This document shows, one piece after another, positions 1-5,459 of a stretch of 7,888 bases of DNA. Source of the DNA: Candidatus Fermentibacterota bacterium (lineage in GTDB: Bacteria > JAFGKV01); contig JAUXFG010000165.1 of assembly GCA_030620115.1 (NCBI GenBank), positions 1 through 7,888 on the forward strand. Reading direction: 5' to 3'. The translations under genes and the position numbers were made by a program. Each line of letters begins with the position of its first letter. Positions within the stretch are counted from its first letter, which is position 1. Below the pieces are notes generated by a model. The model saw only the letters and a list, made by a program, of their open reading frames with translations, did not search any database and had not been told where the DNA came from.

Positions 1-42
1 CATAAATCCCCACTAAATCTATAGATTTAGTGGGGATTTATG
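1..42. repeat. Perfect 42-bp palindrome
   Basis: The first 42 bases are an uninterrupted perfect inverted repeat. The left 21-base arm (CATAAATCCCCACTAAATCTA) is the exact reverse complement of the right arm, with CTATAG at the centre. As single strand it would form a stem of about 19 bp with a minimal loop. It lies 74 bases beyond the stop of the leftward peptidase gene, where a terminator would be expected. However, no T-run follows on the plus side, and the minus side is cut by the window edge. Alternatives are a transposon or MITE foldback end or a dimeric-protein site. The palindrome is certain; its role is not. Confidence 0.9.
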
Positions 43-116: not shown

Positions 117-2852
117 TCACTTGGCCCGAGAGGAAATGCCCGCATAATCGAATTCGCCCACGGCGTTTGATAATGCGGATGAATCCGCAGGGGCATAGGC
201 ACGGACATGATAATAGATGTTCCTGCCCGGATCACCGACTCCGTACGCGCTGGTGAAACTCTGGTCGGCTGTGGTGGTGACCAGAACGGGATCAAGACTG
301 CTTCCCATCTCTCCCCGAAAGATGCCGTAGTAGATGGCTCCATTCACCACAGCCCATGAGAATGTGAGCGCACCAGAATGCACTGCAACGCTTCCTGGAT
401 CGATGACAGGCGGCGCCGGAATTCCCACATCTCGAACAAGAATAGACAGCGCGATGGCGCTGTCTGGAGGCCCCATCTGGTTCGAGTCGCCGAACCAGCA
501 GAATCCTGCCTGCTCAAAGCCAAGATATTCTGCAAGAATCGTATCTGCCGCTACGCAGGGGGCCTGCACCGCAAAGGACAAAACGTGTGTCTGATAAGGA
601 AGTACATGAACACCGACCGCAGCGATGGTTGACGAATCGATCCACCCCTGCGCCGCGAACAAGCTGCTCCTTTCTCGAGGAACAGTGGTCCGGAGCAGGG
701 TCGATTCGTCCCAACTGCAGCATCCTGTGTTGGAGATCTGCAGGGTGCATAGCCTGGTTTCCTGTTCGTTCAGCTCACATGGGTAGGAAAGAGAGATAAC
801 CCCAGCTCCGTACCCATCTTTGGGACCACCGGCCTCCACGTCTAGGTCGAGCCCCGATGCCCCCGTCCATACCCAACCCGTCTCATGGCCAGGGATATTG
901 GCTATCTGAAGTTCATACCACTGCCCTGCGCTCCCAAGGATGGCAAACTGCTGCCCCTCGCTCACCGTGGTCACATATGCGTAGCCCATGCCGGGGCCTA
1001 CGCGTGCATTGAGGGCTTGAGCGACAATATAGGCAATTGGGGTCTCCTGGCTTCCTTCGAGGGAGGCGGTCGCGCTCATCGTATCGCCATAGACCCATCC
1101 TCCATACGTACCAGTTCCTGTTGGAACATGGAAGTGATACCACCCGTGGTGGTGACACGTACTCACGAATTGCCCGGCAGGAGCGATATTGGTGATGACG
1201 GATTCCTCCGTCGAGGGCCCCCGCCTGACAGGAAGGACCTGGCTCGAGTCCTTTACCCTGATCGCGAACGGCCCAATGGGGTCTTCCTCTATTACCTGGT
1301 CGAAACGTATGGGCACATAGGAAGTGAGGCTGGTGAGTTTGAGGGCATGATAGCTTACTCTCCAATCTCCTCCGGCCTCCATGGTGAGCACCATTCCTGG
1401 TGGATTGTCCTCTGCACAGAGTCGAATATGGTGATGTGGCTTGTTCAACGCGTCTCCCCTGCGCATGTCCTGGAACGAAGGGAGCTCGCTGGAGATCAGA
1501 TGCATCGTGGCGCTCTTGTACTTCGTTTCCGTGCCCCAACACCTGCTCACCAAGCCGGAACAGTCAACGCCGATGCAGTACAGATCAGTGGTACCCATTG
1601 ATTGCGTGTAGTCATCGCCACATTTCTTCCCGGCGAGGACGCCGTCCGCGAATTCCGAGAGACTCGTGAATCCTCCCCATTTGTACGGAACTTTCTGCTT
1701 CGGTCCAACCGTCACCCACGATGGAGTACGGACATAAGTCCCATCAGGCATTCGCTCAATCCCCTCGGTGATGTTCTCCAGGCTCGCAGTCCACAAGAGA
1801 TCAACATAACCCCTGGCAGTAGCCATCATCTCGCTCCTCGAGACAGGATCCTCCTGCATCATGCCTCCTTCCCACTTTTTGGGTGGCGCCTGGGGAACAT
1901 GATAGTTGTAATGATAGGGTTCTTCCGGGAAGAAAGGGAAGGAGAGATCGCCCGAGGCAAGTCTCTGGGGATCGGCAACAAGAAGATGCAGGCCGCGCGG
2001 TGAGGAGACGAAGCAGAAAAGAGAATCACCGAATACACCGAAGCTTCTTGGGAACAGGGAGTAGTAAACAAATGGAACGGGAACCACATTCCGCAGCAAG
2101 CCATCCCCAGTGAATACAAAAAGAAGCTCTCTCGCTTCGATTGGAGAGCCCGAAAGCACTTCTTCGGTGAGCACAAGGTGGAGTCCGGCAACAGCCCCGA
2201 GGTATTCCACGGCGCCCAGTTCCGAATCGTGCGTGGTGTCACAAAGATGTTCTCCCCCTGCAGTCACGGCGAATGAGTTTCTTCCGGATCTGGTCACGCA
2301 TGGTTGCGGAGTTTCAATTCGGCGCACTGTTTCTGGATCAAGTGGGTTCTCACCCAAGATCACTTCAAAGCACCTCCCGCTCTCATCAAAGACCACCACG
2401 TGGTCTTGGTGCCAGCCCAGGCGCTCTGCGACCCGGAAAGGGTAGATCCCGGGTTGGGCGCATCGGAACGCTTCTCCCCACTTGCTTACGTGAATCCAGG
2501 TCCCATCCCACACGACAATCCGGTCATCTTTGAGCGCCAGGCGCTCACTGCCCCGAGGAATCGGCGAAGCACTCATAAAGCTCTTTGACACGAGATCAAA
2601 AACCTGCACGAGATCCTGCTCACTATCGAGAAGAGAGAGATATGTGCCTTGCCCGCGCTCGGGTGAGCTGTGACTGACCTCGAAATCAGTAGGACCATAG
2701 CTCCCGGATGGCTCCCATCGCTGAGCGACTCGACCGTCTCCGGAACCCCAGGGAATGAGCAGTACCTCGTCAAAGGCATCTGAATCTGAGGAAAAGAGAA
2801 GGAGGACAGCTGCCATCAGAAGCATGATCAAGGATCGGCTTGATGATCCCAT
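117..2852 (-). CDS. Exported NlpC/P60-family cysteine peptidase with SH3, Ig-like and FN3-like domains
   Basis: The 911-aa product starts with a Sec signal peptide (hydrophobic core about residues 8-20, cleavage probably after SDSDA at 26). Residues 30-300 are beta-rich with repeated VVVFD- and LLFVF-type strands, possibly a beta-propeller; no family is recognised there. Residues 388-495 are an NlpC/P60 domain: YKWGG (390-394), the catalytic-Cys motif GVDCSG (Cys431), RRGD (464-467) and HHHI with His475 as the likely general base. These enzymes usually cleave gamma-D-Glu/diamino-acid bonds in peptidoglycan peptides, but the substrate here is inferred. Two SH3-like domains follow (about 528-592 and 606-670; LPVRRGPS and LNARVGPG, each with a GW[VW]-type strand). 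Next come a Cys-containing Ig-like segment resembling NBR1-type domains (about 684-808) and an FN3-like domain (about 812-900). Start choice: GAGGGG lies 6 bases before ATG and the signal peptide begins at once. No sorting tail of the type seen in the metallopeptidase gene is present, so it is probably periplasmic or released. Confidence 0.9.
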   Translation of the reverse strand: MGSSSRSLIMLLMAAVLLLFSSDSDAFDEVLLIPWGSGDGRVAQRWEPSGSYGPTDFEVSHSSPERGQGTYLSLLDSEQDLVQVFDLVSKSFMSASPIPRGSERLALKDDRIVVWDGTWIHVSKWGEAFRCAQPGIYPFRVAERLGWHQDHVVVFDESGRCFEVILGENPLDPETVRRIETPQPCVTRSGRNSFAVTAGGEHLCDTTHDSELGAVEYLGAVAGLHLVLTEEVLSGSPIEARELLFVFTGDGLLRNVVPVPFVYYSLFPRSFGVFGDSLFCFVSSPRGLHLLVADPQRLASGDLSFPFFPEEPYHYNYHVPQAPPKKWEGGMMQEDPVSRSEMMATARGYVDLLWTASLENITEGIERMPDGTYVRTPSWVTVGPKQKVPYKWGGFTSLSEFADGVLAGKKCGDDYTQSMGTTDLYCIGVDCSGLVSRCWGTETKYKSATMHLISSELPSFQDMRRGDALNKPHHHIRLCAEDNPPGMVLTMEAGGDWRVSYHALKLTSLTSYVPIRFDQVIEEDPIGPFAIRVKDSSQVLPVRRGPSTEESVITNIAPAGQFVSTCHHHGWYHFHVPTGTGTYGGWVYGDTMSATASLEGSQETPIAYIVAQALNARVGPGMGYAYVTTVSEGQQFAILGSAGQWYELQIANIPGHETGWVWTGASGLDLDVEAGGPKDGYGAGVISLSYPCELNEQETRLCTLQISNTGCCSWDESTLLRTTVPRERSSLFAAQGWIDSSTIAAVGVHVLPYQTHVLSFAVQAPCVAADTILAEYLGFEQAGFCWFGDSNQMGPPDSAIALSILVRDVGIPAPPVIDPGSVAVHSGALTFSWAVVNGAIYYGIFRGEMGSSLDPVLVTTTADQSFTSAYGVGDPGRNIYYHVRAYAPADSSALSNAVGEFDYAGISSRAK

Positions 2853-2915: not shown

Positions 2916-2959
2916 CCCCACCCAGATTCTTCGATCACTCCGCTCCCTCAGAATGACAC
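2916..2959 (-). repeat. Dispersed repeat family A, copy 1
   Basis: This 44-base unit matches 3080-3123 at 43 of 44 positions, differing only as CGATC against CGGTC. Read on the minus strand it begins GTGTCATTCTGAGGG and continues to CGAAGAATCTGGG. The inner pentamers ATTCT and AGAAT are complementary, so the unit can fold as a short stem with a loop of about 19 bases. From memory, repeats of the GTCATTCTGAG...GAAGAATCT type are scattered through intergenic DNA of many environmental bacteria. Confidence 0.85.
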
Positions 2960-3079
2960 CTGTTGTCACATCCAATATAAGCTATGAGCTATCAGTTTCC
3001 CTCCCCTCATTCGACGTTGGATGCTTCCGCCAGCTGCCGGATTCAATTCCTCAATCCTTCAGTTCGAAATCCGCCCAGA

Positions 3080-3123
3080 CCCCACCCAGATTCTTCGGTC
3101 ACTCCGCTCCCTCAGAATGACAC
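3080..3123 (-). repeat. Dispersed repeat family A, copy 2
   Basis: This is the second near-identical 44-base copy, in the same orientation as the one at 2916-2959. It starts CCCCACCCAGATTCTTCGG and ends CTCAGAATGACAC. The flanks outside the 44 bases differ between the copies, which marks the unit's ends. It faces the inverted copy at 3157-3190, so the two together make a large imperfect inverted repeat from about 3088 to 3190. Confidence 0.85.
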
Positions 3124-3156
3124 TCATAGTACCACACCCTTCTGCACACTATCCCT

Positions 3157-3190
3157 GTCATTCTGAGCGACTGCAAGAAGCGAAGAATCT
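3157..3190 (+). repeat. Dispersed repeat family A, copy 3 (inverted)
   Basis: This copy reads GTCATTCTGAG, then a divergent 13-base middle, then CGAAGAATCT on the plus strand, opposite to the copies at 2916 and 3080. ATTCT (3160-3164) is complementary to AGAAT (3184-3188). The conserved ends with a variable middle indicate an older, diverged member. Confidence 0.75.
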
Positions 3191-3235
3191 CTATCCACTT
3201 CAGCATTTCTTCCCAATCTCATAATCTCCTCTCCC

Positions 3236-3252
3236 AATCTGTGCAATCTGTG
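3236..3252. repeat. Tandem AATCTGTG octamer
   Basis: AATCTGTG occurs at 3236-3243 and again at 3245-3252, separated by one C, and is followed by GTTCCCATTCC. This resembles another short intergenic repeat style (AATCTGTG-x-AATCTGTGGTT) common in metagenomic sequence, but that comparison is from memory. Confidence 0.5.
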
Positions 3253-3290
3253 GTTCCCATTCCATCTCCCTTGATCCCCTGAACGCTCAC

Positions 3291-3306
3291 ACCACAATTT
3301 TGTGGT
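3291..3306. promoter_or_regulatory. 16-bp dyad upstream of the polymerase gene
   Basis: ACCACAA and TTGTGGT form perfect 7-bp arms around a TT centre, about 88 bases before the polymerase start. The size and symmetry suit a dimeric repressor operator. It does not match the LexA boxes I know (CTGT-N8-ACAG or the GAAC/GTTC type). The operator role is a guess from position and symmetry. Confidence 0.35.
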
Positions 3307-3393
3307 CCATGAAACGATTGCCTCTCCTCCCCCTCCATGCATCTTGGGCAGCAAAGAGAAGGCGCGGACATTGCGGCGAAGGGCAAAAGTCAT

Positions 3394-4596
3394 ATGCGAG
3401 GGGCCCCATTGGCTGTTGCACGCACTATTCTTCATCTCGATCTGGATGCGTTTTTCTGCGCGGTGGAGGAACTGCGTAACCCCTCTTTGCGGGGAAAACC
3501 CTTTGCCGTGGGCGGTCGCCCCGAGTCACGCGGTGTCGTGGCATCCTGTTCCTATCCGGCGCGTTTTCTGGGCATACATTCGGCCATGCCCATGGCCCGG
3601 GCACTGAGACTGTGTCCGTCATTGATGATTGTCGCGACGCATTATGCTTCCTATGAAGAAATCTCTGACCAGGTAATGGAACGCCTGCGACGGCTGACTC
3701 CACTGGCCGAGCAGATCTCTATTGATGAAGCCTTTCTGGATGTGACCCACCTCACTCAGTCGGGTGAATCAATCGCTCGACAGTTGCAGGCCATGGTCAG
3801 AGATGAGCTGGGTCTTCCGTGTTCCATCGGTGTGGCAAGCAACAAACTGGTTGCCAAGATGGCCACGGACGTAGGGAAATCCTCCGCCCAAGCGGGTGAG
3901 CCGCCCAATGCTATCGTGGTGGTTCCTCCTGGAAAGGAGGCCTCCTTCATTGCGCCATTGCCGATTCGCATGCTATGGGGTGTGGGCCCCAAGACTGCGC
4001 AGCGACTGGCGGACCTCGGGATCACCACTATTGGCGATATCGCACGACGGTCAGAGGGAGACCTTGGGCATCATTTTGGTCAGATGGGTCCCCAGTTCGT
4101 GCGTTACGCTCGTGGTCTCGACACGCGGCCCGTGATTACCACCCACGAGGTCAAGTCTATCAGTCAGGAGGTGACATTTGCCCGCGATGTGGCTGATGGG
4201 GAAGAACTTCGGCGCACACTGCGTGATCTTGCGGACCGAGTTGGGCGTCGTGCAAGGAAGGCGCATCTGGCCGGGACCACGGTCAGGCTCAAACTACGTT
4301 GGTCTGACTTCACTACTCTGTCGCGCCAGATTAGACTCCCACACTCTACGGATCAGGATGCCTCCATCAGCGCAGCAGTGATTGGCCTTTTTGACAAAAC
4401 ATGGAAATCCGGGCGCGCAGTACGACTGTTGGGTGTGGGTCTGAGCGGCCTAGGCCCACCACGACCCGCACAGCTCTCTCTCTGGGATGATAGTTCAGAG
4501 AAAAGCCTCGCCCTGCAAGAAGCACTCGATACGGTACGGGATCGCTTTGGCGACCAGGCGGTTCGCCGTGGGGGCAGTGTCAAGAATACAGAGTGA
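3394..4596 (+). CDS. dinB: DNA polymerase IV (Y-family translesion polymerase)
   Basis: Template-directed, error-prone DNA synthesis past lesions, in the cytoplasm. With the chosen start the protein is 400 aa, somewhat longer than the typical 350-aa enzyme. The palm/catalytic motifs are HLDLDAFFCAVEE (Asp16; Phe21 at the steric-gate position) and SIDEAFLDVT (Asp111, Glu112). The fingers contain SYPARFLGIHSAM (53-65). SIGVASNKLVAKMATD (144-159) is the conserved palm segment, and the thumb helix-hairpin-helix is LWGVGPKTAQRLADLG (194-209). The little-finger domain spans about 250-350. QLSLW (360-364) near the C-terminus fits a beta-clamp-binding motif, followed by about 36 extra residues. An in-frame ATG exists at 3337, but it has no ribosome binding site and adds a non-conserved 19-aa tail. 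The ATG at 3394 has GAAGGG 10 bases upstream and places the first motif near the usual position. All key residues are present, so it should be active. Both neighbours are on the opposite strand, so it is probably monocistronic. Confidence 0.96.
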   Translation: MRGAPLAVARTILHLDLDAFFCAVEELRNPSLRGKPFAVGGRPESRGVVASCSYPARFLGIHSAMPMARALRLCPSLMIVATHYASYEEISDQVMERLRRLTPLAEQISIDEAFLDVTHLTQSGESIARQLQAMVRDELGLPCSIGVASNKLVAKMATDVGKSSAQAGEPPNAIVVVPPGKEASFIAPLPIRMLWGVGPKTAQRLADLGITTIGDIARRSEGDLGHHFGQMGPQFVRYARGLDTRPVITTHEVKSISQEVTFARDVADGEELRRTLRDLADRVGRRARKAHLAGTTVRLKLRWSDFTTLSRQIRLPHSTDQDASISAAVIGLFDKTWKSGRAVRLLGVGLSGLGPPRPAQLSLWDDSSEKSLALQEALDTVRDRFGDQAVRRGGSVKNTE

Positions 4597-4656
4597 TTGG
4601 TCCGGATTTCGAGATATTTCAGGTCAGGCCGCGAAGTGCTTTACCCTTTCGGAACC

Positions 4657-4682
4657 CTCCTCGCAATGACAGGTGGAGGAGC
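4657..4682 (-). repeat. Dispersed repeat family B, partial copy
   Basis: The 26 bases from CTCCTCGCAATGACAGG to GGAGC match 4745-4770 at 25 of 26 positions. Only one end (GTCATTGCGAGGAG, minus strand) is clear; the sequence where the partner end should be (AAGTGCTTT, about 4634-4642) is degraded. It is a truncated or decayed copy beside the foldback element. Confidence 0.7.
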
Positions 4683-4684
4683 CG

Positions 4685-4758
4685 GTCATCGCGAGCGACA
4701 GCGCGGCGATCTCGATGGGCGGATGAGATTGCTTCGTCGCTAGTCTCCTCGCAATGAC
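4685..4758. repeat. Dispersed repeat family B foldback element
   Basis: Two family B units lie head to head. The left unit (4685-4713) reads GTCATCGCGAG...GGCGATCTC on the plus strand. The right unit (4725-4758) is its inverted, diverged partner, running GAGATTGCTTCG...CTCGCAATGAC. Each unit has its own complementary pentamers: ATCGC (4688-4692) with GCGAT (4706-4710) on the left, and ATTGC (4728-4732) with GCAAT (4751-4755) on the right. The whole 74 bases can also fold as one long imperfect hairpin around an 11-base spacer. The position between convergent genes suits a bidirectional transcription barrier, but there is no U-run. Confidence 0.8.
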
Positions 4759-4934: not shown

Positions 4935-5459
4935 TTACATGCCCCAGAGATGACCGGTGTGAACCGGTTTCCCTTGCAGTTTCAGGTAGTAGAACAACTG
5001 GCCCTTATGCTGATTGAGATGACCGATCATCTGGAGGAGACGAAGGCCCAGTATCACCTCGGATTGGTCCCATGGCGCGGAGACGGCTTTGGTGGCAAGG
5101 CTGTGCTCATCGGTCTCTCCCAGCATGGCAAGTGCCACTTGCTTGTCTTTTGCCAAAAGCTCCTTTGCCTCTCCAACACTCCCCACCGTCGGAAGCTTTT
5201 CGGCTGAGGGCATCATATCTTCGGGCGATAAATCGCCTGCGTCAGCGCCTCCAGGCATTGCCCAATCGCCAGTGACAAAGCCATGGAAACAGGCGCCGCA
5301 GGATGTCGTGATGTGCTTCAATAGCTTGCCAGTGGTCATCCAATTGCTGCCTGAAGACGGCTTCCAATCGAGCTTGTTATCATCCACTAAATCCAAGAGA
5401 TCTTCTGTCACCTTGTACGTATACTCGACTTCGTGCCTAAGTAACTCCGTCCAGTTCAT
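4935..5459 (-). CDS. DinB/YfiT-like four-helix-bundle metalloprotein
   Basis: The 174-aa cytoplasmic protein has no signal peptide. It shows the layout of the DinB-like superfamily (DinB_2/DfsB type): helix 1 with ELLRHEVEYTYKVTEDLL, helix 2 with GKLLKHITTS, and a C-terminal helix with GHLNQHKGQLFYYLK. His49, His147 and His151 form the expected three-His metal site (H...HxxxH). Members are divalent-metal proteins, some using low-molecular-weight thiols such as bacillithiol or mycothiol in detoxification; most are uncharacterised. No reaction can be assigned here. It is not related to polymerase IV next door; the names coincide only because the family was named after a different DNA-damage-induced gene. 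The start is well supported: AAAGGAG lies just 5 bases before ATG. The gene follows the metallopeptidase gene in the same direction after a 203-base gap containing two hairpins, so independent transcription is likely. Confidence 0.87.
   Translation of the reverse strand: MNWTELLRHEVEYTYKVTEDLLDLVDDNKLDWKPSSGSNWMTTGKLLKHITTSCGACFHGFVTGDWAMPGGADAGDLSPEDMMPSAEKLPTVGSVGEAKELLAKDKQVALAMLGETDEHSLATKAVSAPWDQSEVILGLRLLQMIGHLNQHKGQLFYYLKLQGKPVHTGHLWGM

Follow-up and report, generated by a model that had tools for sequence, protein, structure and literature searches.

Two families of palindromic repeats, A and B, on a contig of a Candidatus Fermentibacterota bacterium appear, judging from their sequences and those of foreign relatives, to form two structural classes within a single superfamily of REP-like elements, whose stem covaries in genomes of many phyla. 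We propose that each unit would be a strand-specific hairpin whose head, (T/C)GTC, stays unpaired and whose foot is CT(C). Between them, the AT-NNN stem may carry any triplet provided that its partner pairs with it; a conserved step of non-Watson-Crick type follows, with GA facing either GA or one of GAA, GCG and GTG, and the inner hairpin is often capped by a GNA triloop. Such a hairpin would be recognised in single-stranded DNA by an enzyme that would rely on its GTC head, on the mismatch step and on the CT foot, and that would copy the units, usually as inverted pairs. In many carriers this enzyme would be something other than a Y1 transposase that can be recognised as such, and in some lineages the pairs probably serve in addition as 3' ends of transcription. 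Taken together, a REP/REPIN-like element that is recognised while single-stranded and folded into a hairpin, with local reuse at RNA 3' ends, is the reading that we favour, with the balance of the evidence leaning somewhat towards it.

Units in the window and in the source genome

The window, that is the whole stretch of DNA analysed, is an entire contig of 7888 bases; the source genome amounts to 4.10 Mb (98% complete) and its phylum is represented by three genomes in the set searched. We found in the window five full units (three of family A and two of family B) and one half unit (Table 1). The pentamers that follow GTC and precede CT pair as described in the original prediction (ATTCT/AGAAT, ATTGC/GCAAT and ATCGC/GCGAT), and the complete units were all confirmed, but the first two family A intervals proposed there (2916-2959 and 3080-3123) include a few flanking bases of a longer direct repeat (2903-2959 / 3067-3123). 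The partial B unit is a half unit at about 4657-4670. The second and third family A units are paired in inverted orientation, their heads facing inwards across a spacer of 35 nt, and the third carries, besides the GA step within its stem, a second possible GA step further in. Separately, a perfect inverted repeat of 21+21 nt lies right at the contig start (window 1-42), either as an assembly edge or as a true hairpin.

Table 1. Repeat units in the window and their neighbouring genes (bits and E values from the covariance model built on foreign genomes)
Feature	Position	Strand	Description
Long ORF with SH3 domain	117-2852	-	Left neighbour of the family A cluster
Family A unit, type A2	2924-2957	-	GTC-ATTCT-GA-GG-GA-GC-GGA-GT-GA-TC-GA-AGAAT-CT; 28.5 bits, E 1.5e-07
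Family A unit, type A2	3088-3121	-	28.8 bits; left partner of the inverted pair
Family A unit, type A1	3157-3190	+	GTC-ATTCT-GA-GC-GA...GA-GC-GA-AGAAT-CT; 34.9 bits; right partner of the pair
DNA polymerase IV-like gene	3337-4596	+	Between the family A and family B clusters
Half unit, family B2	about 4657-4670	-	GTCATTGCGAGGAG on the - strand; right arm lost; repeat D2, spacing 88
Family B1 unit	4685-4713	+	GTC-ATCGC-GA-GC-GACA-GC-GCG-GCGAT-CTC; 17.0 bits, E 0.0009
Family B2 unit	4725-4758	-	GTC-ATTGC-GA-G-GA-GACTAGC-GA-C-GAA-GCAAT-CTC; 16.2 bits, E 0.0017
DinB_2 gene	4935-5459	-	Right neighbour of the family B cluster

The repeats exceed chance in the source genome. When copies were collected by pattern, as the original prediction had suggested, a generic pattern matched 319+335 times (654) genome-wide versus 1+2 times (3) for the reversed pattern, and exact matches to family A (366) and matches to family B2 (82) both compare with 0 for their reversed patterns. 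Leaving the triplet free, we counted 304 GTCATNNNGAG heads in 1.02 Mb of this genome, and the only enriched triplets were TCT, TGC and CGC, which make up 262/304 heads. The first right-hand triplet before ATCT was the exact complement in 121/132 cases for TCT, 58/77 for TGC and 46/53 for CGC (225/262 overall), with the remainder mostly having no foot in range. By a stem-blind scan, 1324/1370 stem cells (97%) were wild type; ACTGC/GCAGT was seen in four copies, and in a few more cases both arms had changed with pairing preserved. Within the source genome the stem is conserved at the level of sequence, and few independent events lie behind the three variants. Since each family is nearly invariant there, the claim of covariation needed other genomes.

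Covariation and anatomy of the superfamily

We surveyed foreign genomes with a single contig scan that left the two triplets unconstrained; it gave at least 118 stretches following the pattern (Y)GTC-AT-NNN-GAG…-N'N'N'-AT-CT. Among the matches listed, carriers belong to Acidobacteriota, Bacteroidota, Chloroflexota, Omnitrophota, Campylobacterota, Clostridia and Cyanobacteria, and further to Nitrospirota, Planctomycetota, Armatimonadota, Kiritimatiellae, Proteobacteria and others. The 99 matches in the first 80 loci carry CCT/AGG, TGC/GCA, TCT/AGA, TCC/GGA, GCT/AGC, GTT/AAC, TTC/GAA and other triplets, mostly full complements.

To quantify pairing, we used 46 distinct 26-mers from many genomes, with the whole core free. 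First, they contain 38 double-changed cells versus 10.5 in shuffles, and their covariation score is 0.303 versus 0.116, with 0/500 shuffles reaching the true value. Second, slid controls all fell far below the true score. Third, pairing holds within single genomes: an Acidobacteriota genome (G013) has 76/78 triplets fully paired over five main triplet types (shuffles: mean 18.7, maximum 33), and a Helicobacter genome has 31/39 units fully paired versus 15.8 in shuffles. As the shuffles retain relatedness, all these figures overstate significance. Pairing is far from being broken as often as it is kept. Because the units occur in many phyla and different triplets are mixed within one genome, shared ancestry alone is an insufficient account of it. 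The real evidence for the covariation announced in the original prediction lies in other genomes.

A mutational origin of this signal, in which template switching between the hairpin arms (quasipalindrome correction) would yield covariation in place of selection, agrees with the rarity of one-arm-changed intermediates (2/78 in G013). However, it should also have removed the mismatches (GA/GA) and the asymmetric loops (GA/GAA) that are conserved across phyla, and it leaves the fixed GTC and CT and the high copy number unexplained. We regard it as the least credible of the explanations considered here.

A covariance model, the check proposed at the outset, was trained solely on the 46 foreign sequences. 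It found exactly the five full units in the window and nothing further up to E = 1, with scores of 28-35 bits for family A and 16-17 bits for family B; in 475 kb of the source genome, its matches at E 0.01 number 81. As a model built only on foreign sequences recovers the units of both families, A and B are best taken, on this sequence evidence, as one superfamily in which B stands more distant from the model. This bears out the initial proposal of a superfamily with a covarying stem and fixed GTC, GAG and CT. Blind 20-kb stretches of carrier genomes showed few elements, probably due to clustering and to classes with an A.A mismatch. In a Hymenobacter genome (G005), a recurrent GCA...AGC class has A facing A at the third position of the triplet.

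From 5' to 3', a unit reads (T/C)GTC, AT, NNN, GA, inner hairpin, GA, N'N'N', AT and CT(C). By anchoring on the inner part only, at 118 or more foreign loci, we found GTC in 203/209 units, preceded by T in 130 or C in 58, and a CT or CC foot in 201/209 (CC in just 20/209). The source-genome head is similar (G 188/194, T 183/194, C 188/194, with a preceding T in 155). The first two stem pairs are AT in every unit examined, AT being built into all search patterns used.

Contiguous pairing ends after 5 bp at GA/GA or GA/GAA. The right-hand GA, which was absent from the search requirement, was present in 78/78 units of the Acidobacteriota genome and 34/39 of the Helicobacter genome, and the fixed GAG...CGA would place GA opposite GA, possibly as a tandem sheared G.A step, followed by a G-C pair. 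Across the source genome and 103 other loci, nearly all units with pyrimidine-centred triplets have the right-hand GA, whereas the purine-centred triplets TGC and CGC go with GAA, GCG or GTG and not with plain GA. These two structural classes, with a symmetric versus an asymmetric internal loop, coincide with families A and B, respectively.

Inside the step, the commonest core of foreign units is GAGCGNAGCGA, that is the GCGNAGC mini-hairpin with a GNA triloop; 58/60 triloops in G013 are GNA and, less uniformly, 18/36 in the source genome. GNA or GNNA loops closed by two G-C pairs form extraordinarily stable DNA mini-hairpins, with a Tm of 78 C for GCGAAGC (PMC4686876). Nearest-neighbour folding predicts weak hairpins, mostly non-significant with z near 0. 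For the B1 unit, the DNA and RNA minimum free energy (MFE) structures both pair the ATCGC/GCGAT stem, and the RNA MFE structure of the A1 unit has the stem and internal loops as proposed, again with z near 0.

TnpA-REP, for its part, depends on GTAG, on CT as the site of cleavage and, in group 2, on a stem bulge of two mismatches (PMC8266576). From this analogy, together with the head (GTC) and foot (CT), the fixed mismatch step and a loop of the DNA type, we infer that the units are recognised and copied as single-stranded DNA.

Arrangement, genomic placement and search for a mobiliser

Adjacent units are inverted in 113/118 pairs of the source genome. Family A pairs there mostly have their heads inside with spacers of 32-34 nt, and family B forms alternating units with spacers of 13-14 nt, which accounts for the 88-nt period in the window. 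On a Hymenobacter contig, 45/45 adjacent pairs are inverted with heads outside and 90/95 units are paired, the triplets mostly agreeing within a pair; no signal of target-site duplication was seen around these pairs. An apparent one-stranded bias on this contig was rejected as a listing artefact, the pairs being inverted and balanced. Two clusters may be mentioned: a dense one in Helicobacter (G007:C4:30335-30932) with GTT-class and related units, and one in a genome of the same family as the source (G001:C280:22916-23164, L204-L214), whose units, 46 nt in length and of the form GTCATCGCGAG...GGCGATCT, have a long inner stem.

We then considered whether the units could be host RNA elements (terminators, stabilisers of mRNA 3' ends or binding sites) under selection on transcripts and multiplied by duplication or gene conversion without transposition. 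Their placement suits this: by a crude ORF heuristic, 69/103 placed clusters are intergenic versus about 15% of random points, and convergent gaps hold 22/69 clusters versus 83/391. However, the family A cluster of the window sits between divergent ORFs, no terminator-like site coincides with the window units, and the covariance models of Rfam 15 gave no match in the window up to E = 1. Besides, the RNA MFE is no better than that of shuffles for most units, the frequent GNA triloop is a stable loop of the DNA type, and the number of copies per Mb varies very widely among carriers. As a general explanation we find the RNA role improbable, although it deserves more credit than either template switching or the Y1 transposase discussed below.

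In Hymenobacter, the pairs bear A-run/T-run ends, and after guaA a pair occupies the place of a terminator-like hairpin; because of both features, reuse of these pairs as a transcription end is likely. The same ends and the same position at a terminator site suit an RNA role equally well. The locus in question (L431, near 1383-1471, 3' of guaA) has an inverted pair where congeners carry unrelated terminator-like hairpins.

Copying by a RAYT, a transposase of the Y1 (HUH) type, from the carrier genome itself, the copier put forward in the original prediction, was examined through the Y1 genes. Both the REP-like build of the units (unpaired head, stem, CT foot and inverted pairs) and the gene content speak for it: the source genome has four Y1 genes (L009, L010, L011 and L012), as the search proposed at the start did find, and at least one Y1 gene occurs in 36/50 carriers. 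However, no A or B head lies within about 1.5 kb of any of the four. L011 is a clear RAYT (194.8 bits versus a cut-off of 80), but it is linked to another family, being flanked by GTAG-headed REPs (GTAGGTCGGGTTA...TAACCCGACAT), of which the genome has 31 exact copies, including eight on the L011 contig; this locus (G000:C200:12475-17723) is in itself a classic REPtron. L009 and L010 have a C-terminal helix-turn-helix domain of the DnaA type, by which they resemble Y1 subclass 2.1.2, a group without known REPs (PMC6006769), and L012 is a weak, short Y1 match.

The carriers tell the same story. A Y1_Tnp match is absent in 14/50 carrier genomes, including the two densest, both Helicobacter, with 392 and 419 pattern matches (231 and 210 per Mb), and a Campylobacter with 201 (126 per Mb), all counts in which one head may be counted more than once. 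Copy density does not differ between carriers with and without Y1 (Mann-Whitney p = 0.75; 50 carriers), and units lie within about 1.5 kb of just two of 30 carrier Y1 loci, roughly what average density predicts. A Y1 gene could have gone after the units had spread, or sit in assembly gaps, as many carrier assemblies are incomplete; Helicobacter marmotae is a named strain. On these grounds the proposed Y1 copier does not hold up, and we give it little chance of accounting for the units.

Among the clusters listed, we saw no recurrent mobile gene beside the units, only ordinary cellular genes. An IS110-type transposase (PF02371) was also tried as a mobiliser and rejected, with no match in 12/16 carriers, the source genome included. 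Coming back to the single-stranded hairpin that we favour, a bolder form of it would be an ancient superfamily of DNA elements, made of a mini-hairpin with a fixed non-Watson-Crick step and spread across phyla by a single-strand DNA enzyme other than Y1; we hold this to be conceivable but rather unlikely. With a structural definition, a model that recovers the units and dense carriers in which no Y1 match was found, the search for a mobiliser, or the proof that none is needed, becomes directly testable in small genomes.

Relation to known palindromic repeats

Searching the literature with the repeat sequences themselves gave no bacterial description among the papers listed. The units resemble the GTAG-headed REPs and REPINs of RAYTs in having a head, a hairpin and a CT foot, inverted pairs and a mismatch step in the stem (as in the E. 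coli type). They differ by their (T/C)GTC head in place of GTAG or GTGG, by the absence of RAYT linkage and by several dense carriers without a Y1 match. The CT foot is present as at the TnpA-REP cleavage site and makes for a putative cleavage site here. As to the loop, d(GCGNAGC) is known as a synthetic and structural motif (PMC4686876), whereas here exactly GCGNAGC, with N free, is the commonest inner hairpin outside the source genome and caps a natural repeat superfamily, suggesting that the very stable GNA mini-hairpin has a natural and widespread use. A further relation, through ATGAC (the complement of GTCAT), exists with the rickettsial RPE-4, RPE-6 and RPE-7, which share this sequence and are inserted inside ORFs (PMC3767692).

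The closest known kind are the CGTC-tagged palindromic repeats of Di Nocera, De Gregorio and Rocco (2013; PMC3733652), which include Neisseria dRS3 and Rickettsia RPE-4/RPE-6. According to that paper, these have an unpaired CGTC head (or TGTC/CCTC), AT as the first two stem pairs, a stem of 8-9 bp, a loop of 4-5 nt and an unpaired tail of three nucleotides, mostly CCA (Table 1 of that paper). They have no associated transposase gene, and the authors found no CGTC unit beside a tyrosine transposase gene, a further argument against a RAYT; they left open what moves repeats of this type. Our units share with them the unpaired CGTC/TGTC head, dimers, high copy number, intergenic location, presence in several phyla and the lack of an associated transposase gene; they may also share AT as the first two stem pairs, which every search pattern used here contained. 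They differ from the published description by a contiguous stem of 5 bp plus a fixed non-Watson-Crick step instead of 8-9 bp, although in the 2013 figure the stem may have been drawn to include positions with mismatches. Compared with the same description, they also have a 3-nt GNA loop or longer inner hairpins instead of loops of 4-5 nt, a CT(C) foot instead of a mostly CCA tail, and an occurrence in more phyla. Since the head and the absence of a transposase fit whereas the published stem, loop and tail do not, we file the units as a variant of the CGTC kind, with which an overlap at CGTC-3/4 is likely. To this kind our analysis offers a structural definition, consisting of a triplet that is free but paired, a mismatch step of two classes and a frequent GNA cap, with a model that recovers units across phyla.
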